Shown here: positions 1 to 50,189 of the stretch, piece after piece
Layout of the letters: every line of letters begins with the position of its first letter
Numbering within the stretch: the first letter of the stretch is position 1
Assembly (NCBI GenBank): GCA_934675585.1
Contig: CAKUQY010000015.1
Coordinates: forward strand, 1 to 50,189
Length of the DNA stretch: 50,189 nt
Reading direction: 5' to 3'
Source of the DNA: an uncultured Opitutales bacterium
GTDB taxonomy: Bacteria; Verrucomicrobiota; Verrucomicrobiia; Opitutales; UBA953
Program-made: the position numbers and the translations under genes
Notes under the pieces: generated by a model
What the model was told of the DNA's origin: nothing
Database searches by the model: none
What the model saw: the letters and a program-made list of their open reading frames with translations, nothing else

Positions 1-95
1 TTGACGAATAAAACTTTCACTCCTTCACAAAAACTAAACCTTCGGTGTCATTTATTATGACGAAATGCGCGGGAATGTCGCGCCATTTTTATTAA

Positions 96-124
96 TTGTG
101 AATTGTTAAATCTAAATTTATAAT
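96..124 (+). promoter_or_regulatory. ruvB promoter
   Basis: TTGTGA at 96-101 and a perfect TATAAT at 119-124 are separated by 17 nt. The -10 box ends only 7 nt before the ATG at 132, so transcription should start at or one base before that ATG. The upstream ATG at 123 lies inside the -10 box and cannot be in the transcript. Confidence 0.6.
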
Positions 125-131
125 GATTGCT

Positions 132-1208
132 ATGGCGAAGAAAAAAGGCGCAAATATTGAGGCGACGGCTCCCCTTGAAAATAACGGCGAGTCGCGCAGT
201 TATTTCGAAGAAGCGTTGAGCAAAAAAGATTTGTCGTTTGACCAAGCGTTGCGTCCGCCAAGTTTTGATGATTTTACGGGACAAGCGCGCACGGTTGAGC
301 GTTTGCAAGTGATGGTTGGTGCGGCGCGCAGAGAAGGTCGCGCGTTGGATCATATTTTATTGCACGGTCCGCCAGGCTTGGGCAAAACGACATTGGCGTT
401 GATTTTGGCTGAAGAAATGGGAACAAAAGTGAAGATCACTTCGGGACCTGTGATTGAAAAGCCCGCAGATCTCGCAGGGTTGTTGACTTCGCTCGAAGAA
501 GGTGAAATTTTGTTTATTGATGAGATTCATCGTATTTCGCGCGTGGTTGAAGAATTTTTGTATTCGGCGATGGAAGATTTTCGCATCGATATTATGATCG
601 ATCAAGGTCCAAATGCGCGCAGCGTGCGTTTGACGATCCCGCGCTTTACGCTCGTGGGCGCGACGACGCGAACGGGCTTGTTGACCGCGCCGATGCGTTC
701 CCGCTTTACTTTGCAAACGCGCCTTGATTATTATCAGGTTGAAGATTTGTTTAAAATCGTGGTGCGCAATTGCGCTAGATTGGGCGTGGCGATTGACGCG
801 GCGGGAGCGATGGAAATTGCGAAGCGCGCGCGTGGTACACCGCGTATTGTTAATAATTTGATTCGCTTTGCGCGCGATTATGCACTCGAACGCGGGAACG
901 GCGATATCACGCAAACAATGGCGGCGCGAGCTTTGGAGTTGTTGGAAATTGATCGCTACGGACTCGATGAAATGGACAAGCGGATTTTGCGCATTATGGC
1001 TGAAAATTATGGCGGCGGTCCCGTAGGGTTGAATACGATTGGAGTGGCGGTCGGTGAAGACGCGAATACGCTTGAAGAAGTACACGAGCCGTATTTGATT
1101 CAAGAAGGTTACATCGCGCGAACGCCACAAGGACGCGTGCTGACAGAAAAAGGTTGGCAAGTTTGCGGAGTTAAACGTGGCGCAAATCAAGGTGAATTGG
1201 GACTTTAA
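132..1208 (+). CDS. ruvB: Holliday junction branch migration helicase RuvB
   Basis: RuvB is the hexameric AAA+ motor that drives branch migration of Holliday junctions together with RuvA and RuvC. The 358-residue product shows Walker A GPPGLGKTT (about residues 79-87), Walker B LFIDEIHR (about 127-134), the sensor GATTRTG and a C-terminal winged-helix part starting around RILRIMAENYGGGPVG. Length is slightly above the usual 335-350 because of an N-terminal extension. I chose the ATG at 132 (MAKKKG) over the in-frame ATG at 123 because the latter overlaps the TATAAT box. One uptake-like motif copy (696) encodes R-S-R in the conserved PLR-x-RFG segment. The gene stands alone; ruvA and ruvC are not adjacent here. 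Confidence 0.97.
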   Translation: MAKKKGANIEATAPLENNGESRSYFEEALSKKDLSFDQALRPPSFDDFTGQARTVERLQVMVGAARREGRALDHILLHGPPGLGKTTLALILAEEMGTKVKITSGPVIEKPADLAGLLTSLEEGEILFIDEIHRISRVVEEFLYSAMEDFRIDIMIDQGPNARSVRLTIPRFTLVGATTRTGLLTAPMRSRFTLQTRLDYYQVEDLFKIVVRNCARLGVAIDAAGAMEIAKRARGTPRIVNNLIRFARDYALERGNGDITQTMAARALELLEIDRYGLDEMDKRILRIMAENYGGGPVGLNTIGVAVGEDANTLEEVHEPYLIQEGYIARTPQGRVLTEKGWQVCGVKRGANQGELGL

Positions 1209-1249
1209 TGTTCCCGCGAAATTTTTAACGTGATTTTTTGTAGAAGTTT

Positions 1250-1600: not shown

Positions 1601-1652
1601 TTCCTCAAAAACAAAAAATCTTTGCGGGAACGCTTAAATATTGTAATTGCGC

Positions 1653-1681: not shown

Positions 1682-1707
1682 AAATCAGTAAACTTCAAAA
1701 ATATCTT

Positions 1708-3342: not shown

Positions 3343-3387
3343 AGCGCGTTCCCGTGAGAAAATCTGCTCGCGGGAACGCTTTTTTTA
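3343..3387 (+). terminator. Rho-independent terminator made of an inverted repeat-motif pair
   Basis: GCGTTCCCG (3346-3354) pairs with CGGGAACGC (3371-3379). The stem is followed by a run of seven T. Both arms are copies of the window-wide motif in opposite orientation. Confidence 0.8.
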
Positions 3388-4849: not shown

Positions 4850-4888
4850 CGCGTTCCCGTAGATTTTTTTCGCGGGAACGCGTTTTTT
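4850..4888 (+). terminator. purB terminator (inverted motif pair)
   Basis: CGCGTTCCCG (4850-4859) and CGGGAACGCG (4873-4882) form a perfect 10-bp stem with a 13-nt loop, followed by six T. It starts about 20 nt after the purB stop codon. Confidence 0.85.
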
Positions 4889-10724: not shown

Positions 10725-11414
10725 CTATTTTTTCTTGGTCCAACGAAAAATTAAAACTTCGTTAATGTCGCGACCGTTTTCTGTTTGCGAGCCCGTTCCC
10801 GCAACGACGAGCAAATATGCTTCGCTGGGCGCGAGATAAAGATTGTTCCCGTAGCGCCAAGTGCGCTTGGCTTCTTCTTTGCTTTTTGCTGCGCTGACGA
10901 GGCGAATGGTGGCGTCCACACCCGTTCCCGTAGGAACTGTAAAATATTTGGCTTGCTCATTGGCGGGAACGATAATTTTTAAATCTTTGCCATCGATTGT
11001 TCCGCGCAAAGATTTTTGTGTGAGATTGAGCAAATAGAGCGTTCCCGCGGCGAGTTTTGATTGGTCAATTTCAAAAAGATGCGCGGCAAATTCATGACGC
11101 TTGTTTTGTGGCAAAATGATGAGTCCGCATTTTTTAGCGTTTTCGGGAACGTTTACCGTTCCCGCGGGAACGTAATCATCGCCGTTTTTTGTGAAAATTT
11201 CGAGCGTTTCTTCGCAATTGATCGAAATGCCTTTTTCGCCAATCGAGCCATAACTTCCTTTGAGGGCTTCGTAATTATTGCCAGATTTTGCGTAAAATCG
11301 AGCTTCGTGCACTTCTGCAATATTATTAAAAACTGGAAAAACAGTAATTGTTTTTGCAAAGCTTAACAATGGCAAAAGTGCAAAAATTAAAGTTGTAAAA
11401 ATTTTTGCTTTCAT
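10725..11414 (-). CDS. Secreted protein of unknown function
   Basis: The 229-residue product begins with a clear signal peptide (MKAKIFTTLIFALLPLLSFA) and is otherwise soluble, with alternating hydrophobic residues that suggest a beta-rich fold. I do not recognise a family. It is the last gene of a minus-strand pair 30 nt after the LolC/E-type permease, so a role at the cell envelope is plausible but only inferred from context. Seven exact motif copies lie inside its 690 bp, including a fused palindrome at 11157-11172, one of the highest densities in the window. Confidence 0.75.
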   Translation of the reverse strand: MKAKIFTTLIFALLPLLSFAKTITVFPVFNNIAEVHEARFYAKSGNNYEALKGSYGSIGEKGISINCEETLEIFTKNGDDYVPAGTVNVPENAKKCGLIILPQNKRHEFAAHLFEIDQSKLAAGTLYLLNLTQKSLRGTIDGKDLKIIVPANEQAKYFTVPTGTGVDATIRLVSAAKSKEEAKRTWRYGNNLYLAPSEAYLLVVAGTGSQTENGRDINEVLIFRWTKKK

Positions 11415-15103: not shown

Positions 15104-15106
15104 ATC

Positions 15107-22088: not shown

Positions 22089-22138
22089 GCGGGAACGCGG
22101 GAGATTTTAATTGTTGCGTTCCCGCGGGAACGCTTTTA
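22089..22138 (+). terminator. nspC terminator with fused motif palindrome
   Basis: GCGGGAACGC (22089-22098), GCGTTCCCGC (22116-22125) and GCGGGAACGC (22124-22133) lie in a row. The first two can pair, and the last two share two bases and form the perfect 18-bp palindrome GCGTTCCCGCGGGAACGC followed by TTTT. Alternative stems are possible. Confidence 0.75.
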
Positions 22139-26935: not shown

Positions 26936-27000
26936 ATATTTTAGCCCTCGATTATGCCTTACGTGGGTAAAAAATCAAAATTAACAAGGCACCTAACTTA

Positions 27001-27006
27001 TATAAT
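27001..27006 (+). promoter_or_regulatory. Proximal topoisomerase gene -10 box
   Basis: TATAAT lies 8 nt before the ATG at 27015. TTAACA at 26981 is the only -35-like hexamer nearby, with a short 14-nt spacer. Confidence 0.4.
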
Positions 27007-27014
27007 TAATAAAG

Positions 27015-29594: not shown

Positions 29595-29655
29595 AAAGAT
29601 TTTGTGAGCGCTTGTCAATTTTGGCGAGCGCTACAAACATTAAAAAGGATAAAAA

Positions 29656-30720
29656 ATGGAACTCAAACCTCGTAAAAAGTTTTACAACAAAAATGCGCCG
29701 CGCAAATTAAAAAAGCGCAAGCCAATGTCGCTCAAGCGCAAAAAATTGTTGTGGCTAAAAAAATTGCGTTCCCGCAAAAAAAAGCCACACCAAACGCGTT
29801 CGCACAATTTTACGCCATTGACCGACGCGATTGTCGCGCAAGCAAAACGCGAAATCGTCGCGGGAGCGGCTTGTATTCAAGTCGGCGGTTGGGCTTATTT
29901 GCGTTCCCAAAATAATTTTGGCTGCGTCGATGATGCCACGCCAGAAATTACCGACGCGATGGTGCATCGTTTTAAAATAAAAAATGCAGAGTGGTTAGAA
30001 GCTGAAATTTTGCGGTTCCCGCAAGAATTGGCGATCCCGCCGCGTGTTTTTAAAGTAAATTCGATTGCCGGCGAAAATCCATTTAAGCGTTCAAAGCCCA
30101 TGCGTTTTTATCGCTTAAACGCAAGCGTTCCCGCGCGTCCATTGTTGCTTGATGAAGCATTTGGTTTTGGCAATTTTTTGAAAGGGCAAACGCGCACATT
30201 GTTTTTTGACTGCAATATTGGTGTTACGCGCAAATTGGTGTCGATTGCACAAGATGCGCAACAAAAGAATGAAAACCTGCAAATTATTTACGTTCTCGTC
30301 AAAGCGCGTCCCGAAGAGCCCGCAGAATTATCGCAACTTTTGCCGCCTTCGGTCGAAGTTTATGCGTCCTACATTGACAGCCCGATTCAAATGATTGCTG
30401 AAATTCCCGACTTTGCATTAGCGCGCGCGCAACGTTTGGCAGAACTTGGCAAAGACGCGTTAATTATTGTTGATGGCTTAACCAATTGGGCAAACGCGCT
30501 CAACAGTATTAAAATTTCTCAATCTGGGAAAACACAAGAAGGCGAAGTCAATTTGTTCGTGCGCATTATTGAAAAAGTGCGTCAATATTTGCAAGCGTCT
30601 TATCAGCTTGAAGGCAAGGGCAGCATTTCTATCGTGGCGGGAGTTCGCCGCAAATCTGAACCAAGCGCTGTTGATAAAGAATTGGCATCGCTCGTTACTT
30701 CAATCACCTCAAATAAATAA
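29656..30720 (+). CDS. Degenerate paralogue of transcription termination factor Rho
   Basis: The 354-residue product is collinear with Rho but catalytically altered. Residues 1-50 are extremely basic. An OB-like part follows with Y-L-R-S-Q-N-N-F and H-R-F-K-I, like Rho's F-L-R-S and R-R-F-N-L. F-K-V-N-S-I matches Rho's L-K-V-N-E-V. The Walker A site, in Rho after GKGQRGLIV, reads LKGQTRTLFFDCNIGVTRK and lacks the P-loop Lys and Thr. KARPEEPAEL (about 215-224) matches Rho's DERPEEVTEM, and DALIIVDGLTNWANALN (about 267-283) matches Walker B and the following helix. The protein stops soon after GSISIVAG, so Rho's last ~90 residues are missing. Nucleotide hydrolysis is unlikely. An AAGGA ribosome-binding site lies 6 nt before the ATG. 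Confidence 0.78.
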   Translation: MELKPRKKFYNKNAPRKLKKRKPMSLKRKKLLWLKKLRSRKKKPHQTRSHNFTPLTDAIVAQAKREIVAGAACIQVGGWAYLRSQNNFGCVDDATPEITDAMVHRFKIKNAEWLEAEILRFPQELAIPPRVFKVNSIAGENPFKRSKPMRFYRLNASVPARPLLLDEAFGFGNFLKGQTRTLFFDCNIGVTRKLVSIAQDAQQKNENLQIIYVLVKARPEEPAELSQLLPPSVEVYASYIDSPIQMIAEIPDFALARAQRLAELGKDALIIVDGLTNWANALNSIKISQSGKTQEGEVNLFVRIIEKVRQYLQASYQLEGKGSISIVAGVRRKSEPSAVDKELASLVTSITSNK

Positions 30721-30725
30721 AAATT

Positions 30726-32246
30726 ATGAAATCGTTTTCTTTTTTCTCATTAGCATTTTTAGCAATTGCGCCATTGGCGTTGGGCGTTCCCGCAAAAAAA
30801 GACGTTCCCGAAAATATTGTTTTCATCGGAGATTCGATTACGCAAGGCGGTTCGTTTTTAAAGGGAGCTGTGCCAAGTTATCGCTATCAACTTTTTAAAA
30901 ATTTTGTGGATAATGATTTGCCGTTTCGCCCGATGGGAATGACACAAGGCGCGAGTAAAAATGTAAATGTGAGCGCGTTGACACCCGATTATCGCGGTGT
31001 AAAATTTGTCAATGTTTCAGAAGCCGCGGCAAGTGGACGTTCTTACCAATACGCAGGGCACGAGCAAGATAACGTTTACAAAAGCGATCCCGGAGTCGTG
31101 TTCCCTGTTGAAAATCGCGGTCCCGTAACTTTAAAACTGGGCTTGCGCAATAGTTTTTGCAAAGAAAAAAATAGTTTTTATGACGGCACAACGCTCAAAG
31201 AATACACGGGCGCAACTTACCCAAAAACTTATGGCAAAGAAAAACCCGACACGCTTTGCGTTATGATCGGCATTAACGATTTGTATGACCAATTTCAGTC
31301 CGACAAAAAAATTGCAGAGCACGTTCACAATATCGTCAAAGCGTATCAGCAATACAATCCAAAAATTCGAGTTTATGTTTTTGAATTGTTGCCAACCGCA
31401 GCAAACAACGGCACGGGAACGAAAAATAAAAATAATTACGGACGCTACAATAATTATTTGCGCTCACTCAATATTGAAAAAAAATGGAGCAAAGGAGCAT
31501 CGCGGGTTTCGTTAGAATGTATTAGCCAAGGATTTTACGCAGAAGACGGCTCAATGTGTGACGGGCCGAGCGGCGCTCACCCAAATGCGCAGGGCGAATT
31601 AATTGTCGCGGGAAACATTGCGCGGGTTTTGGGCGTCGGGCAACGCAACGCGGGCTTAAAACGCGTTCCCGCCGAAAATCTTCGCAAATCTAATTTCGCG
31701 ACCAACGGCAAAGGTATTCAAAAAAGCGGGAACAATATTGAAATTAATTCTTCGCTCGCGGGAACGGCAGATTTGCGTTATCAATGGCCACAAAAAAATA
31801 AGGCGCACGATTGCACGCTCGCATTTACCATTAAAATGAAAAACAAAAAAAGCGCCGATAATTTTGTCGCAACAATGCTCGGGAACGGCGAACAAGTCGG
31901 CGTGCTTTACATCGGCGAAAAAGGACTGTTTTGGAACGACAAAAATAACATTATTTACGGAACAAAAGACATCGCCACGGGAACGCCATTTTGTTCTGAA
32001 AAACCAGTCGATGTGCGCATCGCATATTTGAAAAAAGGCGAAACTGGCGTGAAGCCCGGATTTTATGTTTGGCTCAACGATCAATTAGTTGGCGAGGGCT
32101 TGGCAGGGCAAACAAGTGGTGCAATTGTTGAAAATTATGCCAATTCGATTCTCATTGGCGATATTGGCAATGGCATTGAAACGGCGGCAACAATTAGCGT
32201 TCCCGCAATCGATGCTAAAAATGCAGTCGCTCCCGCTTGTAATTAA
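30726..32246 (+). CDS. Secreted SGNH/GDSL-family esterase or lipase-like hydrolase with C-terminal beta-sandwich
   Basis: The 506-residue product has a signal peptide (about 1-20), then an SGNH hydrolase domain: F-I-G-D-S-I-T-Q-G-G (block I, Ser about 39), V-M-I-G-I-N-D-L-Y (block III, Asn), and D-G-P-S-G-A-H-P-N (block V, with the catalytic Asp-x-x-His). Residues beyond about 330 form a separate, beta-rich region of roughly 170 residues without recognisable motif, perhaps carbohydrate binding. Such enzymes deacetylate glycans or cleave sialic-acid or lipid esters; the substrate is not visible. Eight motif copies, several in the C-terminal region. Confidence 0.85.
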   Translation: MKSFSFFSLAFLAIAPLALGVPAKKDVPENIVFIGDSITQGGSFLKGAVPSYRYQLFKNFVDNDLPFRPMGMTQGASKNVNVSALTPDYRGVKFVNVSEAAASGRSYQYAGHEQDNVYKSDPGVVFPVENRGPVTLKLGLRNSFCKEKNSFYDGTTLKEYTGATYPKTYGKEKPDTLCVMIGINDLYDQFQSDKKIAEHVHNIVKAYQQYNPKIRVYVFELLPTAANNGTGTKNKNNYGRYNNYLRSLNIEKKWSKGASRVSLECISQGFYAEDGSMCDGPSGAHPNAQGELIVAGNIARVLGVGQRNAGLKRVPAENLRKSNFATNGKGIQKSGNNIEINSSLAGTADLRYQWPQKNKAHDCTLAFTIKMKNKKSADNFVATMLGNGEQVGVLYIGEKGLFWNDKNNIIYGTKDIATGTPFCSEKPVDVRIAYLKKGETGVKPGFYVWLNDQLVGEGLAGQTSGAIVENYANSILIGDIGNGIETAATISVPAIDAKNAVAPACN

Positions 32247-32254
32247 TTTGTAAA

Positions 32255-34000
32255 ATGCGCTGGTACACACAACAAACAGATTCGCAAGTCGTTCACGATC
32301 TCGAAGAAGAATTGGGGTTGCTGCCGCCAGTTGCGACTTCGCTTGTTTTGCGCGGAAAAACCAGTGTTGAATCGGCGCAACATTTTTTACAACCACGCTT
32401 GTCGCATATTGCCGATCCATTTTGCGTTCCCAACCTGAAAATTTGTGCGGAACGCATTTTAAAGGCAATTGACAATCGCGATTCTATTTCAATTTGCGGC
32501 GATTACGACGTCGACGGGATTACAGCGACAACTATTTTGGTAAGCTTTTTGCGAGATTATCATTTAAAACCGCACTTTTTTATTCCGCGCCGCAAAACCG
32601 AAGGCTACGGAATGTCGCGCACAATGGTCGATCGCATGCTCGCAAACGGGCAACCAAAACTTGTTATCGCGCTCGATTGCGGCACAAATGCAGTTGAAGA
32701 AATCAAATATTTGCGTTCCCGCGGTTGCGAAGTCATCGTCATCGACCATCATCGCACGCTCGAAGATAGCGCCGGCGTTCCCGCGTCCATTTTGGTAAAT
32801 CCAAATTCTATTTGGTCAGCAGCGCCAGAATATTCTCCACTTTGTACGGCTGGACTTGTTTTCAAAGTTGTTCATGGTGTTGTCAAAATGTTGCGTTCCC
32901 GCGGCGACAAACACGCGTTGCAAATGAATTTGCGCGAATATCTTGACCTTGTTGCGATGGGAACGATTACGGACATTTCGCCGCTCGTAGGAGAAAATCG
33001 CGTGATGGTTTGGTTCGGTTTGCAACAAATGCGTTTAACAAAGCGCGAAGGTGTGCTCGCGATTATCCAAGCCAGCCGCGTAGGCGATCGCGCAGAAATC
33101 GTGCCAACAGATATTTCCCGTCGCATTGGGCCGCGCATTAACGCGTCTGGTCGTCTTGCAGACGCTGCGTTGCCTGTCGAAATGCTTTTGAGCAATAGCG
33201 CATCGCGCTGTCGAGAACTTGCCAAACAACTTTGCGAAATGAACGCATCGCGACAAGAAATTGAACACCGCGTTTTTGAAGAAGCTAAGCAACAAATTCG
33301 CGAATTGGGCTACGAAAACAAAAAGGGCATCGTCGCGGTTGGCGATTGGCACACGGGCGTTGTTGGCATTGTCGCGGGACGCTTAGCGCGCATTTACAAT
33401 AAGCCGTGCATTGTTTTGGGTTTTGAAGGCGAATACGCCAAGGGGTCAGGACGCTCGGTTAAAGGCGTTAATTTGCTTGAACTTTTAAAAACGCTCCCGC
33501 AAGAATCGCTCGAAACTTGGGGCGGGCACCCGATGGCGACGGGCATTACTGCTTATCGCAATAAAATCGAAAAATTGCGCAACGATTTTGAAGTCGCACT
33601 CGAAAATTATACACAAAATCCAAACTGCACTTACGTTGTCGAAGAAAAAATTTTGATTACTAAATGGCTCGATAAAAAAGATTTGACTTTGGAACTTTTT
33701 AACCAAGTCTCAAAATTGATGCCGTTTGGCGAAGGAAATCCTGAACCGATTTTTGGGCTGAGCAACGTTCCCGTACCTCAAATTATTACATTTTCAAGTT
33801 ATGGCGCAGAAAAAATTGATTCATTTCGCTTTGAAACAACGATTGAAAACGGCGTAAAAGTAACGTTTATGGGACACAATATGGATGTTTTACCGATTTC
33901 AGGTCAACGAGTCGATTTAGCAATTAAACTTTCGTTTAGTTATTACAACGGCAATCGTTATCCCAAAGTAGAAATCGTTGATTGGCATTCGTGTTTTTAA
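32255..34000 (+). CDS. recJ: Single-stranded-DNA-specific exonuclease RecJ
   Basis: RecJ degrades ssDNA 5' to 3' in recombination and repair. The 581-residue product has the DHH-family motifs: C-G-D-Y-D-V-D-G (about 82-89), A-L-D-C-G-T (about 136-141), V-I-D-H-H-R-T (about 161-167), followed by C-T-A-G-L-V-F-K. The DHHA1 and OB-like parts include GPRINASGRLADA (about 289-301), GDWHTGVVGIVAGR and GGHPMATG. Length fits the family (about 560-580). The small OB-like gene with an SSB-type tip (34599-35150) is two genes downstream. Confidence 0.96.
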   Translation: MRWYTQQTDSQVVHDLEEELGLLPPVATSLVLRGKTSVESAQHFLQPRLSHIADPFCVPNLKICAERILKAIDNRDSISICGDYDVDGITATTILVSFLRDYHLKPHFFIPRRKTEGYGMSRTMVDRMLANGQPKLVIALDCGTNAVEEIKYLRSRGCEVIVIDHHRTLEDSAGVPASILVNPNSIWSAAPEYSPLCTAGLVFKVVHGVVKMLRSRGDKHALQMNLREYLDLVAMGTITDISPLVGENRVMVWFGLQQMRLTKREGVLAIIQASRVGDRAEIVPTDISRRIGPRINASGRLADAALPVEMLLSNSASRCRELAKQLCEMNASRQEIEHRVFEEAKQQIRELGYENKKGIVAVGDWHTGVVGIVAGRLARIYNKPCIVLGFEGEYAKGSGRSVKGVNLLELLKTLPQESLETWGGHPMATGITAYRNKIEKLRNDFEVALENYTQNPNCTYVVEEKILITKWLDKKDLTLELFNQVSKLMPFGEGNPEPIFGLSNVPVPQIITFSSYGAEKIDSFRFETTIENGVKVTFMGHNMDVLPISGQRVDLAIKLSFSYYNGNRYPKVEIVDWHSCF

Positions 34001-34004
34001 AATT

Positions 34005-34562
34005 ATGGCAACAATTCATTCTATTAAAACTCAGCGTTGCGATTTGCGCGCGCTCGTTCCCGCCGACGCGGAAGCATTGTTGGAAATTTTGAGCGACGCG
34101 GGAACGGTAAAGTTTTTAAATTTAACGCAGCCCAAATGCGTTCCCGACGCCGAAAAAATTATTGAAGAATATCTCGAAGGTTATCGCGCGGGAACAAAAT
34201 TTCCGTTTGCAATTATCGAGCGTTCCCGCCAAAAATTGATTGGCGTTTTCTTGATAAAATTAGATCTTTTTGACGAAGATTGTTTTGAATACACAACATA
34301 TTTACACAAAGATTTTCAAGGCAAGGGCTTTATCAACGAAGTGTTCCCGTCAATGTTGCAATTTGCATTTGAACAAATTGGCACGGGCAATGTGCGCGGT
34401 TTTATTATGCAAGGGAATAACGCGTCCGCAAAAATTTGTCTTAAAAACAAAATGATTTTAGAAAAAGTTTTTGACGTTCCTGGAATCACGCACAAAATTG
34501 AAAGTTATTTGATGACGCGGGAACAATATAATTTGCTCGCGGGAACGAAAAAAAGCAATTAA
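34005..34562 (+). CDS. GNAT-family N-acetyltransferase (RimJ/RimL-like)
   Basis: The 185-residue product resembles RimJ/RimL-type GNAT enzymes: T-Q-R-C-D-L-R at the start, P-F-A-I-I-E-R-S near residue 65, L-H-K-D-F-Q-G-K-G-F (acetyl-CoA site, about 101-110) and G-N-N-A-S-A-K-I-C-L-K-N (about 137-148). The start ATG at 34005 lies 4 nt after recJ. The target (protein or small molecule) cannot be told. Five motif copies within 560 bp. Confidence 0.85.
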   Translation: MATIHSIKTQRCDLRALVPADAEALLEILSDAGTVKFLNLTQPKCVPDAEKIIEEYLEGYRAGTKFPFAIIERSRQKLIGVFLIKLDLFDEDCFEYTTYLHKDFQGKGFINEVFPSMLQFAFEQIGTGNVRGFIMQGNNASAKICLKNKMILEKVFDVPGITHKIESYLMTREQYNLLAGTKKSN

Positions 34563-34598
34563 ACTATCACCAATATAAAATTTAAAAATTCAACCATT

Positions 34599-35150
34599 AT
34601 GAACGATACTGAAATTGTAAAATTATTGCAACAAATCGGCAGCGATCTCGCCGAAATTAAACAAATGCTCGCCGCGCGCCCAGCCGCTCCCGCGGGAACG
34701 CCAGCAAGTGCCAACCGCACCGTGAGCGCCTCAACCGAAGACAAAGTTTTTAATCTCGAAATTTTTGACGGAACAATGCGCGAATGGAAAAACGGCGTCA
34801 ATGCCGGCAAGGGCGCTTATGTGCGCATCAAATTAATTGAGCCCTATGAAGGACTTTCTTGGGGAAGCTTGGGCGTGCGTTACATCGATGGCAATCCACC
34901 ATTTTGCGTGCAACAAGCAGGCAACAAAATCTCTGTGCGCGGACGCATCAGTGTGCGCGAATTTAATGGTCGCCAAGACATTACAATTTTCCCCGCCCGC
35001 AATTCATTCGGGAACGATGATATTTGGGAAACCGCAATCGATGCCAACGAATCGGCTGATGCTCCAGCTAATGACGTTCCCGCGGCGGCTCCCGCACCAC
35101 GCAAAGCGGTGGCGCCACAACCGCTCGACGATGGCGACGTGCCATTTTAA
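34599..35150 (+). CDS. OB-like protein with an SSB-type acidic C-terminal tip
   Basis: The 183-residue product has an N-terminal short coiled coil (residues 1-24: T-E-I-V-K-L-L-Q-Q-I...), an Ala/Pro linker, a beta-rich central domain (about 50-145) with K-I-S-V-R-G-R-I-S-V-R-E-F-N-G-R-Q-D-I-T that looks like OB-fold strands, an Ala/Pro-rich disordered region, and the final residues D-D-G-D-V-P-F. That end matches the acidic tip of bacterial SSB (D-D-D-I-P-F), which recruits RecJ, RecQ, PriA and others. No canonical SSB domain is recognised. Function is inferred as an accessory ssDNA-binding or SSB-mimic protein. It lies two genes after recJ and ends in a terminator hairpin. Confidence 0.68.
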   Translation: MNDTEIVKLLQQIGSDLAEIKQMLAARPAAPAGTPASANRTVSASTEDKVFNLEIFDGTMREWKNGVNAGKGAYVRIKLIEPYEGLSWGSLGVRYIDGNPPFCVQQAGNKISVRGRISVREFNGRQDITIFPARNSFGNDDIWETAIDANESADAPANDVPAAAPAPRKAVAPQPLDDGDVPF

Positions 35151-35172
35151 TTGACTAAAAAAATATAAAAAT

Positions 35173-35212
35173 GCGTTCCCGCAGGATTTTTTTCTTGCAG
35201 GAACGCTTTTTA
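35173..35212 (+). terminator. Terminator after the SSB-tip gene
   Basis: GCGTTCCCGCA (35173-35183) pairs with TGCAGGAACGC (35196-35206) with one mismatch, followed by six T. The 5' arm is an exact motif copy, the 3' arm a one-base variant. Confidence 0.8.
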
Positions 35213-35242
35213 TAAAGCAACAACGCAGACCGAAATAAAAAC

Positions 35243-35271
35243 TTGATTTCAAAAACGCGTTTATTCATAAT
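35243..35271 (+). promoter_or_regulatory. hisD promoter
   Basis: TTGATT (35243-35248) and CATAAT (35266-35271) are 17 nt apart, giving a leader of about 35 nt. A purine-rich TAAGGA (35295-35300) precedes the ATG at 35313 by 12 nt. No attenuator-like leader peptide is evident. Confidence 0.45.
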
Positions 35272-35312
35272 TTAAGTAAACATTAAAAAAAATTTAAGGA
35301 ACTATAGAAATT

Positions 35313-36722
35313 ATGTTACAAATATCAACAAAAGATTCAGATTGTTTTGAAAAACTCCGTAAATTTGCGGAATCTCAAGGTAAAAATCAAGAGGTTTCCA
35401 AAACAGTTGAAAGTATTTTAAAAGCAGTGAAAACACACGGCGATGACGCATTGTTGGACTTTGCTCAAAAGTTTGATAATGTTACATTGACGGCTGAACA
35501 ATTACGCGTTAGCGAAAAAGAAATCGCTGATGCGATGGCGATGGTCGATCCCGCCAAAATCGAAGCAATTAAAGATTCGATTGCAATGGTGAAAAAATTC
35601 CACGAGCGCAGCGTGCCTCGCAGTTGGCAAGAACGCAATTCGCATTACGCGGTGGTTGGCGAACGCTTTTTCCCAATTCAAAATGTTGGTCTTTACGTTC
35701 CCGGCGGACACGCGCCACTTTGCTCGACCGTTGTTATGACCGCCATTCCCGCAAAAGTTGCAGGCGTGCCACATTTAGTGCTTTGCACACCACCACGCAA
35801 AGATGGAACGGTAGCGCCTGAAATTTTGGCGGCGGCACATCTTTGTGGCGTTAATGAAATTTACAAAATTGGCGGCGCACAAGCGGTTGCTGCAATGGCT
35901 TACGGAACAAAAACCGTTCCTCGCGTTGATAAAATTGTCGGTCCTGGCAACGCGTTTGTCGTTGAAGCAAAACGAGCACTTTTTGGTTTGGTTGGCATTG
36001 ATTTATTGCCTGGTCCAAGTGAATTGATGATTGTGGTTGATCGCAAAACAAAACCACAATGGGCAGCCATCGATTTGTTGGCGCAAGCAGAACACGGCTC
36101 GGGCAAGGAACGCTTGTATGTCATCTTGCTCGATGATAGCGTCAAAGAACGCATCGTTGAAGCGTTGAGCATTGAAATTGGACGTTATCCAGAACGCGCT
36201 GAATATCTCAAAGAATCAATCGAAAAAAATCTTTGCTTTATTCATGCAAATTCGATGAAAGACGCGGTCGATGTTATTAATTTTGTTGCGCCAGAACACC
36301 TCGAATTGCAAATGCGTGGTATTTTTGAACGCGCATTTGTCGAAGGCGTAACAACGGCGGGAGCAATTTTGTCAGGACACTTTACGCCTGCGGCGCTTGG
36401 CGATTTTATCGCGGGTCCATCGCACACTTTGCCAACTAATCGCACAGGACATTTCAGTAGCGGTTTGCGCGTTGATGATTTTATGCGTCGTTCAAGCTAT
36501 GTTCGCTACGACGAAAAAGCAATTCGTTTGGCAAATGCAACGGTTATAGCATTCGCAACAATGGAAGGGCTCAAAGCTCACGGCGATTCTGTCGCGGTGC
36601 GTCAATTGCCAGAAAAGACGAAAAAGCCACGCAAAGAATATTCACGTCCTGCGCAACGCAAACGTCGCCGCACGAAAAAAGAAATGATCGCGGCGCGCGC
36701 AAACGATTTACAAAGTCGCTAA
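35313..36722 (+). CDS. hisD: Histidinol dehydrogenase with a basic C-terminal extension
   Basis: HisD carries out the last two oxidations of histidine synthesis. The 469-residue product has G-L-Y-V-P-G-G-H-A-P-L-C-S-T (about 125-138, NAD site), GPGNAFVVEAKR, LPGPSELMIVVD, DLLAQAEHGSG (zinc-binding Gln and His) and GDFIAGPSHTLPTNRT. The catalytic core matches the normal 430-residue enzyme. The last ~35 residues (after KTKKPRKEYSRPAQRKRRR) are a strongly basic tail, not typical of HisD. The gene is flanked by terminators, so it is a single-gene transcript, separate from any his operon. It has only one motif copy, at the conserved VPGG. Confidence 0.95.
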   Translation: MLQISTKDSDCFEKLRKFAESQGKNQEVSKTVESILKAVKTHGDDALLDFAQKFDNVTLTAEQLRVSEKEIADAMAMVDPAKIEAIKDSIAMVKKFHERSVPRSWQERNSHYAVVGERFFPIQNVGLYVPGGHAPLCSTVVMTAIPAKVAGVPHLVLCTPPRKDGTVAPEILAAAHLCGVNEIYKIGGAQAVAAMAYGTKTVPRVDKIVGPGNAFVVEAKRALFGLVGIDLLPGPSELMIVVDRKTKPQWAAIDLLAQAEHGSGKERLYVILLDDSVKERIVEALSIEIGRYPERAEYLKESIEKNLCFIHANSMKDAVDVINFVAPEHLELQMRGIFERAFVEGVTTAGAILSGHFTPAALGDFIAGPSHTLPTNRTGHFSSGLRVDDFMRRSSYVRYDEKAIRLANATVIAFATMEGLKAHGDSVAVRQLPEKTKKPRKEYSRPAQRKRRRTKKEMIAARANDLQSR

Positions 36723-36726
36723 TTTT

Positions 36727-36800
36727 GCGTTCCCGTAAAACAGAAAATCGATTGAGTTGAATGTTTCAATTCAGTCGATTTTTTTTGCGGGAACGCTTGT
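36727..36800 (+). terminator. Nested hisD terminator inside an inverted motif pair
   Basis: Inner stem: AAAATCGATTGAGTTGAA (36744-36761) pairs with the arm at 36765-36782 with two mismatches and is followed by a T-run. Outer pair: GCGTTCCCG (36727-36735) and CGGGAACGC (36788-36796). The outer 3' copy overlaps the fabD -35 region. Confidence 0.75.
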
Positions 36801-36813
36801 TTCAATTTATAAT
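36785..36813 (+). promoter_or_regulatory. fabD promoter
   Basis: TTGCGG (36785-36790) and TATAAT (36808-36813), 17 nt apart. The -10 box ends 9 nt before the ATG at 36823, so a leader of about 2-3 nt is predicted. The -35 overlaps a motif copy. Confidence 0.55.
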
Positions 36814-36822
36814 GATAATCCT

Positions 36823-37722
36823 ATGAAAGCATTATTATTTTCAGGTCAAGGTGCTCAAAAAGTGGGCATGGGCAAATCGCTTTACGAAGCGTCGGCAACG
36901 GCGCGCGCGATTTATGATAGCACGGCAAAAGTTTTGCCATTTGATTTAAAGCAAATCTGTTTTGAGGGACCTCAAGAAACTCTCACCGAAACTCGTGTTT
37001 GCCAACCAGCGCTTTTTACACAAGGTTATGTCATTGCTCAATTGCTTAAAGAACAAGGCAAACTCAACGATCTCGGCTGCGTGCTTGGTCTTTCAATCGG
37101 CGAATTGACAGCTTATGCAGTGGCGGGCGTTTGGGATTTTGAAACAGGTCTCAAAATCGTCGCTGAACGCGGACGCTTGATGCAAGAAGCTTGCGACGCA
37201 ACCAAAGGCAGTATGGCGGCAATTATCGGCGGTTCCCGCGAAGATGTGCTTGCATTCTGCAAAGAATTTGACGTGGACGCTGCAAATTTCAACACACCAG
37301 GACAAATTGTTATTTCTGGTGACGCTGAAAAAATCGCAGCCGCAGTCGCAAAAAATGCAGAAACAAAACAATTCAAACGCGCAATTCCACTCGTGGTCGC
37401 GGGAGCGTATCACTCTCGTTTGATGGAACCTGCTCGCGCAAAATTTGAAGCGTTTCTTTCAACCATCGAATTCAAAAAACCACATACGCCAGTGTTTACA
37501 AACACAACGGGCAAATTGATTGATGACCCAGACGCAATGCGCGCAGCACTCGCAAAACAAGTGGTTTCATCGGTGCTTTGGGAAGATTGTGTTCGCGAAG
37601 CAATCGCAATGGGCGTTACCGAAACGATCGAATGCGGTCCTGGCGGCATTCTCACAGGTATGATGAAAAAAATCTCTCCAGAAACAGCAGCGCGTGGCGT
37701 GGCTGAATTTGAAGAAATTTAA
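36823..37722 (+). CDS. fabD: Malonyl-CoA:ACP transacylase
   Basis: FabD loads malonyl groups onto acyl-carrier protein for fatty-acid synthesis. The 299-residue product shows F-S-G-Q-G-A-Q (about 5-11), the nucleophilic serine in G-L-S-I-G-E (about Ser91, usually G-H-S-L-G-E), and the catalytic His in A-G-A-Y-H-S (about 202). A frame opening 22 codons upstream includes the promoter and is not used. Length fits the family. The gene lacks exact motif copies. Followed by a motif-palindrome terminator. Confidence 0.94.
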   Translation: MKALLFSGQGAQKVGMGKSLYEASATARAIYDSTAKVLPFDLKQICFEGPQETLTETRVCQPALFTQGYVIAQLLKEQGKLNDLGCVLGLSIGELTAYAVAGVWDFETGLKIVAERGRLMQEACDATKGSMAAIIGGSREDVLAFCKEFDVDAANFNTPGQIVISGDAEKIAAAVAKNAETKQFKRAIPLVVAGAYHSRLMEPARAKFEAFLSTIEFKKPHTPVFTNTTGKLIDDPDAMRAALAKQVVSSVLWEDCVREAIAMGVTETIECGPGGILTGMMKKISPETAARGVAEFEEI

Positions 37723-37755
37723 TTTTTCAAAAAACAAAAACTCGTTCCCGCAGGC

Positions 37756-37778
37756 ACGTTCCCGCGGGAACGTTTTTA
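37756..37778 (+). terminator. fabD terminator made of a fused motif palindrome
   Basis: ACGTTCCCGCGGGAACGT (37756-37773) is a perfect 18-bp palindrome of two head-to-head motif copies and is followed by TTTTT. A third copy lies at 37743. Confidence 0.8.
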
Positions 37779-37827
37779 TTGGAGTTTCCGCGAGAAATTT
37801 ATTATCGCAAAAAACGACGGGAACGCA

Positions 37828-37833
37828 TATACT
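37828..37833 (+). promoter_or_regulatory. Glycosidase gene -10 box
   Basis: TATACT lies 7 nt before the ATG at 37841, just after a motif copy (37819). A leader of one base or none is predicted. Confidence 0.45.
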
Positions 37834-37840
37834 TTCATTT

Positions 37841-40486
37841 ATGAATACCCTAAAAATTACCTCCACATTTTTAGCTATTGCTCTTGGCGCAATAACACTT
37901 TTGGCAAAGCCAACTCAGCGTAAAACATTTGATTTTGATTGGAAATTTGCCAAATTTGGAGGATTTGAAGATTGCATTGCGCCGCAAGACCCCGGCGAAG
38001 CGGCGGCTAAACCCAATTATTCTGATAGCAAATGGCGCAAACTTGATTTGCCGCACGACTGGGGCGTGGAATCGCGCTTTATGCCGAATTTGCCGAATCA
38101 AACAGCGTCGCTCCCGTGGAATGCTGTGGGTTGGTATCGCAAAGAATTTAATTTGAAACCAGACGCCGATTCGCGTTATTTTATCGATTTTGATGGTGTG
38201 ATGATGACGCCACAAGTTTATGTCAACGGTCAATTGGCGGGCGAATGGAAATATGGCTACAACTCATTTCGCGTTGATGTTACGAAATTCTTAAAATCGG
38301 GCAAAAATGTGGTTGCAGTGCGCGCAGAAAACAAACAAAATTCAACGCGCTGGTATCCTGGCGCAGGCATTTATCGCCACACTTATTTTGTAGAATCGCC
38401 TTCCGTTCACATTGCGCATTGGGGCGTTTTTGTTCATACACCTGAAATTCGCGGTATCAAAAAAATTAACGATAAAAAACCGCCGAAAGAAATCAAAGCA
38501 AGTTCCGCAAAAGTCGCTACAGAAACAACCGTCGCCAACACTCGCGGGAACGCGATTGAAGCAGAAGTAATTCAAGAAATTTTCCCGATCCCGAGCGAAA
38601 AGGGCGCAAAAGCACTTGCGCAAAAATCAACAAAAATTAAAGTTGAAGCTAACAGCGAAGCCGTCGCAAAAACAGAGCTGATTCTTAACTCTCCAAAATT
38701 GTGGGACATACTTTCGCCTTCGCGTTATACTTTGCAAACGACCATTCGCGTCAATGGCAAACCCATCGATCGTTCCCGCACAAAATTTGGCGTGCGTAAA
38801 GCTGAATGGAAAACAGACGGATTTTATCTCAACGACCGACGCGTGCAAATTAAAGGCGTTTGCCAACACCATGATCTTGGGCCTCTTGGCGGAGCTGTTC
38901 ACGAACGTGCAATCGAACGCCAAGTTGAAATTTTGCAGAGTTTTGGCACCAATTCAATTCGCACAGCGCACAATCCGCCCGCGCCAGAATTGCTCGAAAT
39001 CTGCGATGAAAAGGGAATTCTCGTTGATGCAGAACTTTTCGACTGCTGGAAATATCTCAAAGAAGGCAAAGCCAATGGCTACAATTTGTTTTGGGACGCT
39101 TGGCGGGAACGTGACGTGCGCAATTTTGTTGTGCGCGATCGCAATCACCCTTGCGTGATCGCTTGGTCTGCCGGCAACGAAATTTCAGAGCAAGGCGCTA
39201 ACGACGGCAAAGAAATTGCGCGCGATTTGGTGCGACTTTTCAAAAAATACGACTCAACCCGCCCAATTACCGTTGGTTGCAATGATTTGAGCGCGTCGTG
39301 GAACGGTTTTGGCAAAGAATTTGATGTTTATGGTTTTAATTACAAACCTAATAATTACAAAGATTTTGCAAAGAAAAACAAACAACCATTCGTCGCTTCT
39401 GAAACGGCTTCTTGCGTGAGTACGCGCGGATTTTATTCGTTCCCAGAAAACGATAAAGATTTTGAACCATTCTGGAAGCGCAATTTCTGCGACAATCTTG
39501 CAATTTGCCAAGTGAGCGATTACGGTCTCTACGCGCCGGGCTGGTCTTATGCGCCAGATGTGGAATTTGGCGCGCTTGAAGACGAGCCAAATTGCGCTGG
39601 CGAATACGTTTGGACGGGCTTTGACTATCTTGGCGAGCCAACACCTTGGAATCTTGGACGTAAACCTGAAAATGATTTTCGCGGCGTTCCCGAAAAAGAA
39701 TTGAAAAAAATGAAAGAAGAGATGGACCGCCTCAAACGCCAAGGTTCACCCGCGCGCAGTTCGTATTTTGGCATTGTCGATTTGTGCGGTTTTTGGAAAG
39801 ATCGCGCTTGGATTTATAAATCGCACTGGATGCCCGACGTTCCCACGGCTCACATTTTGCCGCATTGGAACTGGAAAGGCGTGCGCGATGGCAAAATTAC
39901 GCCTGTCATGGTTTACACTTCTGGCGATTCGGCAGAGCTTTTCTTAAACGGGAAATCGCTCGGCAAGCGCAAGAAAAAAGATGGCGCGCCACTTTCTGGC
40001 AAAGATATGAACGGCGATTTGCGGGAACGCTTCCGCTTGGTTTGGATGAATGTAAAATACGAACCAGGAACACTTAAAGTTGTCGCTTACAAAAATGGTA
40101 GAAAATGGGCAGAAGATGTCGTTGAAACTACCGACGCTCCCGCACAAATCGAAGCAACCGTCGATCGTGATACGATTACTGGCGACGGACGTGATTTGGC
40201 TTACGTCACCATTCTCATCACCGACAAAAAAGGTCGAAAAGTGCCAACCGCAGACAATCGCTTAAAATTCTCGGTTAGCGGGAACGCTGAACTCGTTGGC
40301 GTTTGTAATGGTTTGCAAACCGACCACGATTCAATGAAAGGCGACACAATTAAAGCACACGCGGGAATGGCACAAGCGATTTTGCGCTCAAAACGCGATT
40401 CTGGCGGCAAAGCAACTTTAAAAATTTCGGGCGAAAAATTACCTTCAAAATCAATCGAAATTAAAATTATCAAGAAAAATAAATAG
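37841..40486 (+). CDS. Secreted glycoside hydrolase family 2 enzyme (beta-galactosidase-like)
   Basis: The 881-residue product has a signal peptide (about 1-23) and the GH2 layout: a sugar-binding jelly-roll domain (about 30-210) with LPHDWGVE, an immunoglobulin-like domain (about 215-325), a TIM barrel (about 330-640), and C-terminal Ig-like domains. The acid/base Glu lies in A-G-N-E-I-S (about 446), the nucleophile probably in V-A-S-E-T-A-S (about 520). G-E-Y-V-W-T-G-F-D-Y-L-G-E-P-T is characteristic of this GH2 branch. The signal peptide suggests periplasmic or outer-surface action on polysaccharides. The frame opens 49 codons earlier, but only this start gives a signal peptide. Confidence 0.92.
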   Translation: MNTLKITSTFLAIALGAITLLAKPTQRKTFDFDWKFAKFGGFEDCIAPQDPGEAAAKPNYSDSKWRKLDLPHDWGVESRFMPNLPNQTASLPWNAVGWYRKEFNLKPDADSRYFIDFDGVMMTPQVYVNGQLAGEWKYGYNSFRVDVTKFLKSGKNVVAVRAENKQNSTRWYPGAGIYRHTYFVESPSVHIAHWGVFVHTPEIRGIKKINDKKPPKEIKASSAKVATETTVANTRGNAIEAEVIQEIFPIPSEKGAKALAQKSTKIKVEANSEAVAKTELILNSPKLWDILSPSRYTLQTTIRVNGKPIDRSRTKFGVRKAEWKTDGFYLNDRRVQIKGVCQHHDLGPLGGAVHERAIERQVEILQSFGTNSIRTAHNPPAPELLEICDEKGILVDAELFDCWKYLKEGKANGYNLFWDAWRERDVRNFVVRDRNHPCVIAWSAGNEISEQGANDGKEIARDLVRLFKKYDSTRPITVGCNDLSASWNGFGKEFDVYGFNYKPNNYKDFAKKNKQPFVASETASCVSTRGFYSFPENDKDFEPFWKRNFCDNLAICQVSDYGLYAPGWSYAPDVEFGALEDEPNCAGEYVWTGFDYLGEPTPWNLGRKPENDFRGVPEKELKKMKEEMDRLKRQGSPARSSYFGIVDLCGFWKDRAWIYKSHWMPDVPTAHILPHWNWKGVRDGKITPVMVYTSGDSAELFLNGKSLGKRKKKDGAPLSGKDMNGDLRERFRLVWMNVKYEPGTLKVVAYKNGRKWAEDVVETTDAPAQIEATVDRDTITGDGRDLAYVTILITDKKGRKVPTADNRLKFSVSGNAELVGVCNGLQTDHDSMKGDTIKAHAGMAQAILRSKRDSGGKATLKISGEKLPSKSIEIKIIKKNK

Positions 40487-47945: not shown

Positions 47946-47990
47946 AATTTACGTTCCCGCGGAGAAAATTTACGTTCCCGCGGGAATTTT
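47944..47990. terminator. Motif direct repeat and hairpin between prfB and the ATPase
   Basis: A 19-nt direct repeat (47944-47962 and 47965-47983) carries one motif copy each. The second copy extends to TTCCCGCGGGAA, a short palindrome followed by TTTT. It lies between convergent genes and could serve both. Confidence 0.5.
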
Positions 47991-49992
47991 AGATTTGCCA
48001 TTTGCGCACTAAAAGCGAGGCTGAATTACCAACGACAAGTAACGAACTGCAATTATGTAAAATTGCGCCTGTTACGGGATCGAGAATTCCTGCTGCGCTC
48101 AAAACAACCGCAACTAAATTAAGGCAAATCGAAAACGCAAAATTGACATGAATCGTTCTCAAAATAATGCGCGAAAATTTAATAAGCGCGGGAACAAGTT
48201 CGAGTTTATTATTGAGCAGAGCGATGTCGGCGGTTTCGATCGCAACCGTTTGTCCGCCTGCGTCAAACGCGCTCATTGCCATGCCAACATCTGCATTGAC
48301 GAGCGCGGGAGCGTCATTGACACCGTCGCCCACCATCATAATTTTTTCGTTGTTTTTGAGTTGTTGGACAACTTTGGCTTTGTCTGATGGCAATTGATTG
48401 GCAAAAACATAATCAACGCCGACATGTTTTGCGATTGCGTTCGCGGCGGGAGCGTTATCGCCTGTGATAAGCGTGGTTTTAATGCCGCTATTTTTTAATG
48501 ATTCGATGACGCTTTTGGCGTTCCCGCGAACGGTGTCGATAAATGAAATAATTGAAACGAGTTTGTTGTCAATTAACGCGTAAACAAGTGTTGAAGGCAT
48601 TTCAGATTCGAGATTTTTTGGCGTTTCTACAACTTGTTTATTTTTAAGATTTTCGTAAGCTTTTTGTGAGCAAATGCGAAGCTCTTCGTGATCGTCAGTC
48701 CAAGCGGTAATGCCGATTCCGCGTTGCGCGGTGATGTTTGAAAGATTTGGCAAATTTTGATTTTTTTCGTTTGAAAATGCTTTTGCGATTGGGTGTTGTG
48801 AACGGCTTTCGGCGGCCGCGCAAAGTGAGATGATTTCATCTTTGGTGTAGCCGTTAGTTGTCCAAATTTTATCAATTTTTAATTCTGCCGTTGTAAGCGT
48901 TCCCGTTTTATCAAATGCGATGTGATTGATTTTTGCGAGGGTTTCAAGGGCGGCTCCAGATTTTACCAAAATGCCGTGATGTGAAGCGGCGCCGATGCCC
49001 GCGGCGATAGCAGTTGGTGTAGCGAGCGCGAACGCGCAAGGGCAAAATACAACCAAAATAGTTACGCCGCGAATGAGCGCTTCTGAAAAATCACAAGCCA
49101 AAATAAAATACGCGATTGCCCAAACAATTAACGAAAAAACAATGGCGGCGGGAACGATAATCGACGCCCATTTATCAGCGATATTTTGAATTGGCGCGCG
49201 GTGGGTTTCTGCATTTTCGACAATTTCAATCAATTGCGCGAGCGCAGTATTGCTTGCAAGTTTTGTAACGCGAATCGTGAGCGCGCCTTGTAAATTGCGC
49301 GTTCCCGCGAGCACGTGAGCGCCAATTGTTTTTTCGACGGGAACGCTTTCACCGGTCATATTTGCTTGATTAACGCTGCTGTTGCCTTCGATGATTTCGC
49401 CGTCAATTGAAATGGCTTCGTCGGGCGCGATTTGTACAAGGTCGCCAATTTTAAGATTTTCGACGGGAACGATTTCTGTTTTGCCGTTCCCGCAAATGCG
49501 TTTTGCCGTTTTGGGCGAAAGTTGCATCAATTTTTCAATGCCAGCGTGAGCTTTGCGCAAAGTATAATTTTCCAACATTTCGCCAAGCATCATCAGCCAT
49601 GCGATTTCTCCCGCCGCAAAAATATAACTATCTCCACAAGCATCGCCGTGCACTTCGGCATGATTAAAAACCACAAAAAATTGCAAGGCGATCGACGCCG
49701 TCATCGCGACAGAAATCAACAAACTACTCGTGATTTTTTTATGTTTAAAAAGTGAAACGATCGCCGTTTTGTAAAGTGGCGCACCACAAAGAATAATCGC
49801 AATCCACGCGGGATCGCTCAACGGATAAAATGGAATTTTATGAATCCAATTTTCGGGCATGAAAAAACTAAAAATCAAACTAACAAGACCAAGCCCCAGC
49901 AATAAAATTTCTTTGGGCGAAATCGGTTGAATCGCATGATGATTATGTTTTTGATTTGCGTTTTGTACGCCGCCGCAACAGGAACAAGCCAT
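47989..49992 (-). CDS. Heavy-metal-translocating P1B-type ATPase
   Basis: An inner-membrane efflux pump of 667 residues. Motifs: T-G-E-S in the actuator domain (about 220), the metal-binding C-P-C in the sixth helix (about 317-319), D-K-T-G-T-L-T (about 360, phosphorylated Asp), S-Q-H-P in the nucleotide domain, and G-D-G-V-N-D-A-P. There is no HMA domain; the N-terminus has C-S-C-C-G-G and H-N-H-H, probably metal-binding. The last helices (D-P-V-T-G and H-N-C-S-S) look nearer to Zn/Cd than to Cu pumps, but the metal cannot be fixed. A motif copy (48898) lies in the codons of DKTGTLT. Confidence 0.92.
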   Translation of the reverse strand: MACSCCGGVQNANQKHNHHAIQPISPKEILLLGLGLVSLIFSFFMPENWIHKIPFYPLSDPAWIAIILCGAPLYKTAIVSLFKHKKITSSLLISVAMTASIALQFFVVFNHAEVHGDACGDSYIFAAGEIAWLMMLGEMLENYTLRKAHAGIEKLMQLSPKTAKRICGNGKTEIVPVENLKIGDLVQIAPDEAISIDGEIIEGNSSVNQANMTGESVPVEKTIGAHVLAGTRNLQGALTIRVTKLASNTALAQLIEIVENAETHRAPIQNIADKWASIIVPAAIVFSLIVWAIAYFILACDFSEALIRGVTILVVFCPCAFALATPTAIAAGIGAASHHGILVKSGAALETLAKINHIAFDKTGTLTTAELKIDKIWTTNGYTKDEIISLCAAAESRSQHPIAKAFSNEKNQNLPNLSNITAQRGIGITAWTDDHEELRICSQKAYENLKNKQVVETPKNLESEMPSTLVYALIDNKLVSIISFIDTVRGNAKSVIESLKNSGIKTTLITGDNAPAANAIAKHVGVDYVFANQLPSDKAKVVQQLKNNEKIMMVGDGVNDAPALVNADVGMAMSAFDAGGQTVAIETADIALLNNKLELVPALIKFSRIILRTIHVNFAFSICLNLVAVVLSAAGILDPVTGAILHNCSSLLVVGNSASLLVRKWQI

Positions 49993-50178
49993 AATTGAAA
50001 AATAAAAGTTTGAATTATCAAGTAAAAATTATAACACTTTTTGCGCGGGAACGAGAATTATTAAATCGTTCCCGCAAAAATAATCGCGTTCCCGCGGGAA
50101 TATTTTTTTTGATTTGACAGATATTTTTCGCGCCGTTATAGTTGTTGGTGTTTTAAAACCCCGAATTTTTTATTTTTT
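49993..50178. other. Intergenic region with a motif cluster and promoter
   Basis: Upstream of the ATPase (minus) and a possible plus-strand gene. It has three exact motif copies (50047, 50067 and 50087), with one inverted pair, and a good plus-strand promoter at 50114-50142. No RNA gene or ORF was found. Confidence 0.5.
50114..50142 (+). promoter_or_regulatory. Promoter at the window end
   Basis: TTGACA (50114-50119) and TATAGT (50137-50142), 17 nt apart, the best-matching promoter in the window. It reads toward the ATG at 50179, leaving a leader of about 30 nt. Confidence 0.6.
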
Positions 50179-50189
50179 ATGAGCGAAGT
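50179..50189 (+). CDS. Possible start of a gene cut by the window end
   Basis: ATGAGCGAAG at the window edge, downstream of a strong promoter and a T-rich leader. Only three full codons (M-S-E) are visible, so nothing can be said about the product. Confidence 0.3.

Follow-up and report, generated by a model that had tools for sequence, protein, structure and literature searches.

Probable DNA uptake sequence of one Opitutales genus: a dense, asymmetric word maintained at the DNA level

What keeps a short, asymmetric word at one copy per 233 bp through 50,189 bases of bacterial DNA? The question is raised by contig CAKUQY010000015.1 of an uncultured Opitutales bacterium, analysed here over its whole length (the window), in which the word GCGGGAACG, with the seven-mer GGGAACG inside it, recurs on both strands. 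The answer that I will argue for, at a probability of roughly 0.7, is that GCGGGAACG is an independently evolved DNA uptake sequence of one Opitutales genus. The organisms would then be competent, their uptake would prefer the word, and this bias, rather than some other DNA-level process, would maintain it: the receptor of a type IV pilus/ComEC machine would bind and import DNA carrying GCGGGAACG preferentially, and repeated recombination of DNA imported from kin would spread and restore the copies. The observation beneath this proposal is that GCGGGAACG is a real, asymmetric word, genus-wide and maintained at the DNA level.

An exact count of the window gives 106 copies of GGGAACG and 109 of CGTTCCC, 215 in sum, where a first-order Markov model expects 5.4 on both strands together; this bears out the tally by eye, the strand balance and the counts per 10 kb of the initial annotation (now 35, 39, 51, 37 and 50, with 3 more in the final 189 bases). 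Of these 215 seven-mers 137 (65+72) belong to the full GCGGGAACG, while CGGGAACG has 94+102 copies on the two strands, and the core GGGAAC extends to the consensus (t)(c)GCGGGAACGC, outside which the flanks show no additional tract. With open reading frames (ORFs) of at least 60 amino acids called mechanically, 194 copies are coding (4.04 per kb) and 21 intergenic (9.49 per kb), so the roughly two-fold intergenic excess claimed earlier holds at 2.3-fold, whereas the "about 30" intergenic copies shrink to 21. Relative to the genes the copies are oriented 100/94, and most of these genes look like ordinary housekeeping ones (RuvB, GMP synthase, DNA topoisomerase, RecJ, DXP synthase, a peptide-chain release factor and others). 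Counts per 5 kb are overdispersed in some relatives (variance/mean 4.0 in G001; 1.7-2.1 in G013, G012 and G017); those of the window, G014 and G015 are not.

On the most prosaic explanation the word simply follows from the codon, dinucleotide or peptide composition, and indeed these proteins are rich in Ala-Gly-Thr and Arg-Ser-Arg. Synonymous shuffles, which conserve both the proteins and the codon usage, refute it: in the window ORFs of at least 100 amino acids they leave a mean of 12.7 copies (standard deviation 3.1, maximum 20, n=100) against 190 actual ones, in a sample of G001, the nearest relative available, 61.4 against 640, and in G012 61.8 against 291. Together with the Markov expectation this disposes of codon and dinucleotide bias, and the intergenic density exceeding the coding one points the same way. 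The direction of influence is rather the reverse, since the word shapes protein sequences: Ala-Gly-Thr is 6.65-fold over expectation in window proteins and is spelled GCGGGAACG in 36 of 39 cases (1.3 expected), and Arg-Ser-Arg is spelled CGTTCCCGC in 22 of 22 (0.29 expected). The tripeptide excess is smaller in G016 and G018, two relatives poor in the word, and in samples of the sister genomes G002 and G008 the tripeptides stand at 0.7- to 1.8-fold with zero motif spellings.

The word is not a peculiarity of the window but is genome-wide in its relatives. The window topoisomerase is 82% identical to that of the Opitutales metagenome-assembled genome RUI087 (locus L001, in G001), and G001 contains 3488 copies of GCGGGAACG against 48 of the reversed control. 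A survey of 79 genomes of the family of G001 found six genomes of one genus with 3060-4396 copies each (reversed control 44-60), two further ones, G016 and G018, with 743 and 336, and the other 71 with 9-172, so that the genus is exactly the eight genomes carrying 336-4396 copies. Across the order (273 genomes drawn, 265 of them outside the genus and some of these already counted as family members), CGGGAACG reaches 5192-6550 in the six rich genomes, and at most 713, in 4.2 Mb, outside the genus; the rich genomes stand about 50-fold or more over the reversed control. In pooled samples their guanine-plus-cytosine (GC) content varies between 0.52 and 0.62, with the word at the head of the 7-, 8- and 9-mer lists throughout, and because of this span composition is not the cause of the word. 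The other 63 loci from the topoisomerase search, where at least 6 kb long, hold at most 0.48 copies per kb. I infer that the window organism belongs to this genus or stands next to it. No comparable word emerged for the sister genera in 13 non-genus samples of 19-100 kb each, clustered words being filtered out; the best alternatives there reach about 4- to 15-fold and at most 60 copies. One candidate for another genome-wide word, GGTAGGGA of the motif-free family genome G050, was rejected as confined to local clusters, and its contig L083 (G050:C3) carries clustered GGTAGGGA/TCCCTACC inverted repeats.

Copies of the word also stay in place between species, far above matched controls. Motif sites are conserved at 254 of 289 (87.9%, control 60.4%) between G013 and G015 and at 288 of 354 (81.4%, control 45.4%) between G014 and G017, counted from both sides, with other seven-mers of equal GC as controls and with 4 and 3 gapped sites excluded, and in four more distant pairings at 61-75% against 20-35%. 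The window itself, over the part syntenic with L001, keeps 19 of 47 copies (40%), or 19 of 30 (63%) in the reverse direction, where the control gives 8-10%. Four-fold degenerate third positions are unchanged in 386 of 398 cases (97.0%) inside the motif against 79.3% outside for one close pair, in 417 of 443 (94.1%) against 77.8% for the other, and in 68 of 79 (86.1%) against 65.7% for a more distant pair; since these sites are silent, it is the DNA and not the protein that is maintained. The tolerated departures from GCGGGAACG are graded, single-base variants being commonest at positions 1, 7 and 9, rarest at 2-6 and intermediate at 8, where the C to T variant occurs 7 times in the window against 0.7 expected, with some excess of position 5 variants in G012, G014 and G015; such a near-match spectrum looks like the binding specificity of a recognising protein. 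Silent-site conservation and graded recognition fit any sequence-specific binder, and a nucleoid or chromatin-like protein whose target is selected at thousands of sites would be one. I hold this to be highly improbable: the distances between copies in the window follow an exponential distribution, as random placement would give, and two species of the genus have far fewer copies. I know of no target of a nucleoid-type protein at such density.

Another reader of short, asymmetric, dense words in core genes would be a recombination or segregation motor, as with Chi or KOPS, for which the word would be selected at many sites. Words of this type are oriented along the replication arms, whereas GCGGGAACG is balanced overall (106/109 in the window; 380/391 and 348/355 in further counts), and two 20-kb blocks of a single contig agree in the sign of their GC skew but are opposite in motif skew, at 21/54 and 45/13. 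The two most skewed 20-kb blocks owe this to two giant ORFs of G015, L139:5454-12120 (-) and L141:2164-10984 (+), of 2221 and 2939 amino acids, with 33:1 and 26:1 sense copies. An orientation following the replication strand was not found on the contig blocks, no closed genome being among those compared. One copy per 233 bp and the insertion of Ala-Gly-Thr into proteins would moreover go beyond what a motor signal needs, and I consider this explanation very unlikely.

Closely spaced copies bring the uptake sequence back into focus. Among intergenic neighbours 12-45 bp apart in the window and the six rich genomes, the -/+ arrangement occurs 59 times, 54 of them beside a T/A run, against 21 for +/- (9 beside such a run) and 45 in the same direction (21), the -/+ preference stemming from G001, G015, G013, G014 and G017. 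Terminator-like pairs of the kind that the initial annotation had described are present at two places in the window, and four further pairs of opposite copies overlap to form the palindrome CGTTCCCGCGGGAACG (Table 1). Comparable figures are known from uptake sequences, namely -/+ 69 against +/- 40 for overlapping pairs of the uptake signal sequence (USS) in H. influenzae (PMC7811141), and terminators with uptake words, whose share reaches 22% in some Pasteurellaceae and 37% in some Neisseriaceae (PMC13020248).

Table 1. Features of the word in the window (the terminator scan is taken up in the text below).
Feature	Position	Strand	Remarks
Field of 215 GGGAACG copies (106 +, 109 -)	1..50189	.	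Extended consensus (t)(c)GCGGGAACGC
Inverted motif pair, 13-pair terminator-like hairpin with T tail	3346..3379	+	Behind ORF ending 3324; top match of terminator scan
Inverted pair CGTTCCCG...CGGGAACG with T run	4852..4880	+	Behind purB-like gene ending 4830 (Lyase_1/ADSL_C); absent from terminator scan
Palindromic overlap of two opposite copies, CGTTCCCGCGGGAACG	11157..11172	.	
Palindromic overlap CGTTCCCGCGGGAACG	22117..22132	.	
Stretch syntenic with L001 (72% nucleotide identity)	26905..39626	+	19/47 window GGGAACG kept in place
Palindromic overlap CGTTCCCGCGGGAACG	29543..29558	.	Near 3' end of DNA topoisomerase gene (27015-29594)
Palindromic overlap CGTTCCCGCGGGAACG	37757..37772	.	

This pairing beside T/A runs, which is the pattern of USS and of the Neisseriaceae DNA uptake sequence (DUS), also bears on the main rival, a word like HIP1 of cyanobacteria, kept up by mutational or repair bias, possibly with an orphan DNA methyltransferase, and without any role in uptake. 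HIP1 represents the other known class of dense words, iterated like GCGGGAACG across a whole clade, and is almost coextensive with its core methyltransferases (PMC4390886), and some PF01555 methyltransferase is present in all eight genus genomes. HIP1, however, is palindromic and methyltransferase-linked, whereas the Opitutales word is asymmetric and the six rich genomes have no PF01555 family in common, other methyltransferase families not having been searched: G014 and G015 lack a family of about 300 amino acids, which motif-poor G016 has, and G001, G013 and G014 lack one of about 397 amino acids, which occurs in motif-poor G018. A link of the word to a PF01555 methylase was accordingly rejected over the eight genomes examined, and the HIP1-like explanation as a whole I regard as unlikely.

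If uptake maintains the word, a machine for it should be encoded, and it was read from the eight genus genomes, relatives of the window organism. ComEC, DprA, prepilins and a cluster of three pilus-type ATPase genes, which reads as PilB-PilT-PilB, are found in 8/8, and a secretin in 7/8, none being found in the fragmented assembly of G012; competence and type IV pilus genes are therefore present in the genus. All eight also possess a cluster of four prepilins, which has counterparts of 28-42% identity in the three sister genomes examined, and by analogy with comNOPQ, the four-prepilin cluster of Pasteurellaceae (PMC12616744), it is a candidate for the receptor. When two pilin families were searched against solved structures, the matches were again pilins, aligned for the most part along the N-terminal region. 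One pilin of the cluster has a relative in 73 of the 79 family genomes (matching across the greater part of the protein chiefly in the genus and in G002-G011, and outside them mostly at the N-terminal end), as does ComEC in 73 of 79, and since both are wider than the motif, the machine is older than the word.

Foreign DNA would be expected to lack the copies, and two low-GC restriction islands in rich genomes, one HpaII-type with Vsr and one MjaI-type (L172:11843-15901 and L076:57-4373; GC 0.30-0.43), hold 1 and 0, with a Schlafen-helicase island being copy-poor as well. In the five genomes with at least two low-GC ORFs, such ORFs carry 0.3-1.2 copies per kb against 3.0-3.8 in other ORFs, or 5.6-8.8-fold over their own expectation against 10.9-16.7-fold. 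Ten viral contigs with the palindrome are not enriched overall, at 0.19-0.54 copies per kb. As a separate curiosity, one viral contig has six or seven GGGAACG/CGTTCCC within about 150 bases (L223:9063-9208) and none in the rest.

Several of the results weigh against an uptake sequence, and they belong together. ComEC and the pilin relative are each found in 73 of the 79 genomes of the family, so having the machinery is no predictor of having the motif. No ComEA-like protein was found, the over-threshold HHH_3 matches (8/8) lying only in ORFs of 773-831 amino acids that read as Tex-like; I count ComEA as usual, not defining, for uptake-sequence systems, but its lack lowers the claim. ComP of Neisseria is basic, and no basic receptor-type prepilin appeared among the 37 of 42 prepilins examined in the six rich genomes, all acidic with isoelectric points of 4.2-5.4. 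Of the competence genes named in the initial annotation, ComEC and prepilins are there, whereas ComEA was not found, nor, among the 37, a basic ComP-like prepilin; both results argue against a system copied from Neisseria. Neither the window (2 against 5) nor G012 (2 against 3) shows the -/+ preference, and a simple terminator scan of window positions 1-20000 yields 31 hits in total where shuffles give 38.1, and so no general excess. Low-GC ORFs of the five genomes hold 22 copies where their own dinucleotides predict 3.0, so that the word is kept out of foreign DNA only in part; copies are also scarce in a conserved rpoA/ribosomal segment. Lastly, a few genomes of the order outside the genus lie 3- to 10-fold above the reversed control, at far lower density, with 713 CGGGAACG against 143 in G190 and 133 against 14 in G179 (about 1 Mb). 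Still, an uptake sequence, as the initial annotation had proposed, is what I infer from a word that is genome-wide, beyond codon and dinucleotide bias, and accompanied in relatives by pilus and competence genes.

The two motif-poor species of the genus add a historical dimension. In trees of ComEC and of the four pilins, G016 and G018 group with G001 inside the genus, at supports of 80/86 and 82/85 (ultrafast bootstrap 80-82), so that their motif-poor state, with moderate support, looks like secondary loss or decay and not like a primitive condition. The first ComEC tree was built without G017, G018, G008 and G046 (coverage cut), and the later one contains rows for G011 and G046 that are probably in the wrong frame and leaves the genus unresolved, which the pilin tree resolves. 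A motif dialect was considered for the pair, G016 favouring GCGGGAA with loose ends and G018 being weak, and was set aside for decay on the strength of these trees. These two alone within the genus carry a second four-prepilin cluster and a second secretin on the same contig (G016:C36, G018:C62), and an additional secretion ATPase is encoded in each on a different contig. GAGCAGG/CCTGCTC, possibly a Chi-like word, is enriched in their samples (L147-L166, L075, L077), at 80 against 15.5 expected in G016 and 52 against 10.5 in G018, and the k-mers that top the list for the G018 pool come mostly from CACCACCAACC-type repeats.

How does GCGGGAACG compare with the uptake words already known? Functional uptake sequences have, to my knowledge, been described in two proteobacterial families only, and the same holds among the matches listed. 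The likeness to the DUS of Neisseriaceae lies in a short asymmetric word with thousands of copies on both strands, in genes and in terminator-like pairs, alongside competence and type IV pilus genes; the Opitutales word differs in being unrelated in sequence and phylum, in its shorter strict core, and in that neither ComEA nor, among the prepilins examined, a basic ComP-like one was found. With the Pasteurellaceae USS it shares asymmetry, inverted terminator pairs with -/+ favoured and a four-prepilin cluster, a similarity of architecture only, while being unrelated in sequence and about 3-4 times denser. The USS has AT-rich, helically spaced flanks, and these are not seen around the Opitutales word. 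Descent from either finds no trace in the letters, the published GCCGTCTGAA or AAGTGCGGT, as given in PMC13020248, differing from the consensus GCGGGAACG. The earlier claim of a density several-fold above DUS and USS is right against meningococcus and gonococcus (about 1900 DUS copies in genomes of 2.2-2.3 Mb; PMC3630211) and H. influenzae (USS about 1 per kb; PMC7811141) and wrong against Kingella oralis, whose 5918 DUS ten-mers in 2.4 Mb (PMC3630211) compare with 4396 nine-mers in the roughly 1.6 Mb of G012, giving GCGGGAACG a density close to the highest for any DUS in that 2013 survey, that of kingDUS. No uptake sequence of Verrucomicrobiota is described among the matches listed from the open-licence literature, where the review PMC6777429 contains both terms, and the motif letters as a whole word lead, among the matches listed, to papers on other subjects.

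I lean towards the fuller claim that this is a third, independent code for the uptake of self-DNA, in Verrucomicrobiota, as dense as any known, reshaping proteins, served by a receptor unlike the basic ComP, and decaying in G016 and G018. DUS and USS have been thought convergent, and a predicted minor-pilin receptor for USS has led authors to suggest divergence from deep proteobacterial roots (PMC12616744); an unrelated word in another phylum would, if true, stand beside them as a clear independent case. It would furthermore imply frequent natural transformation in Opitutales known mainly from metagenome assemblies, and a clade with rich, poor and empty genomes lends itself to a comparison that could reveal the receptor and weigh molecular drive against selection. 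The gain and the loss of a bacterial mate-recognition word would then be traceable within one genus.

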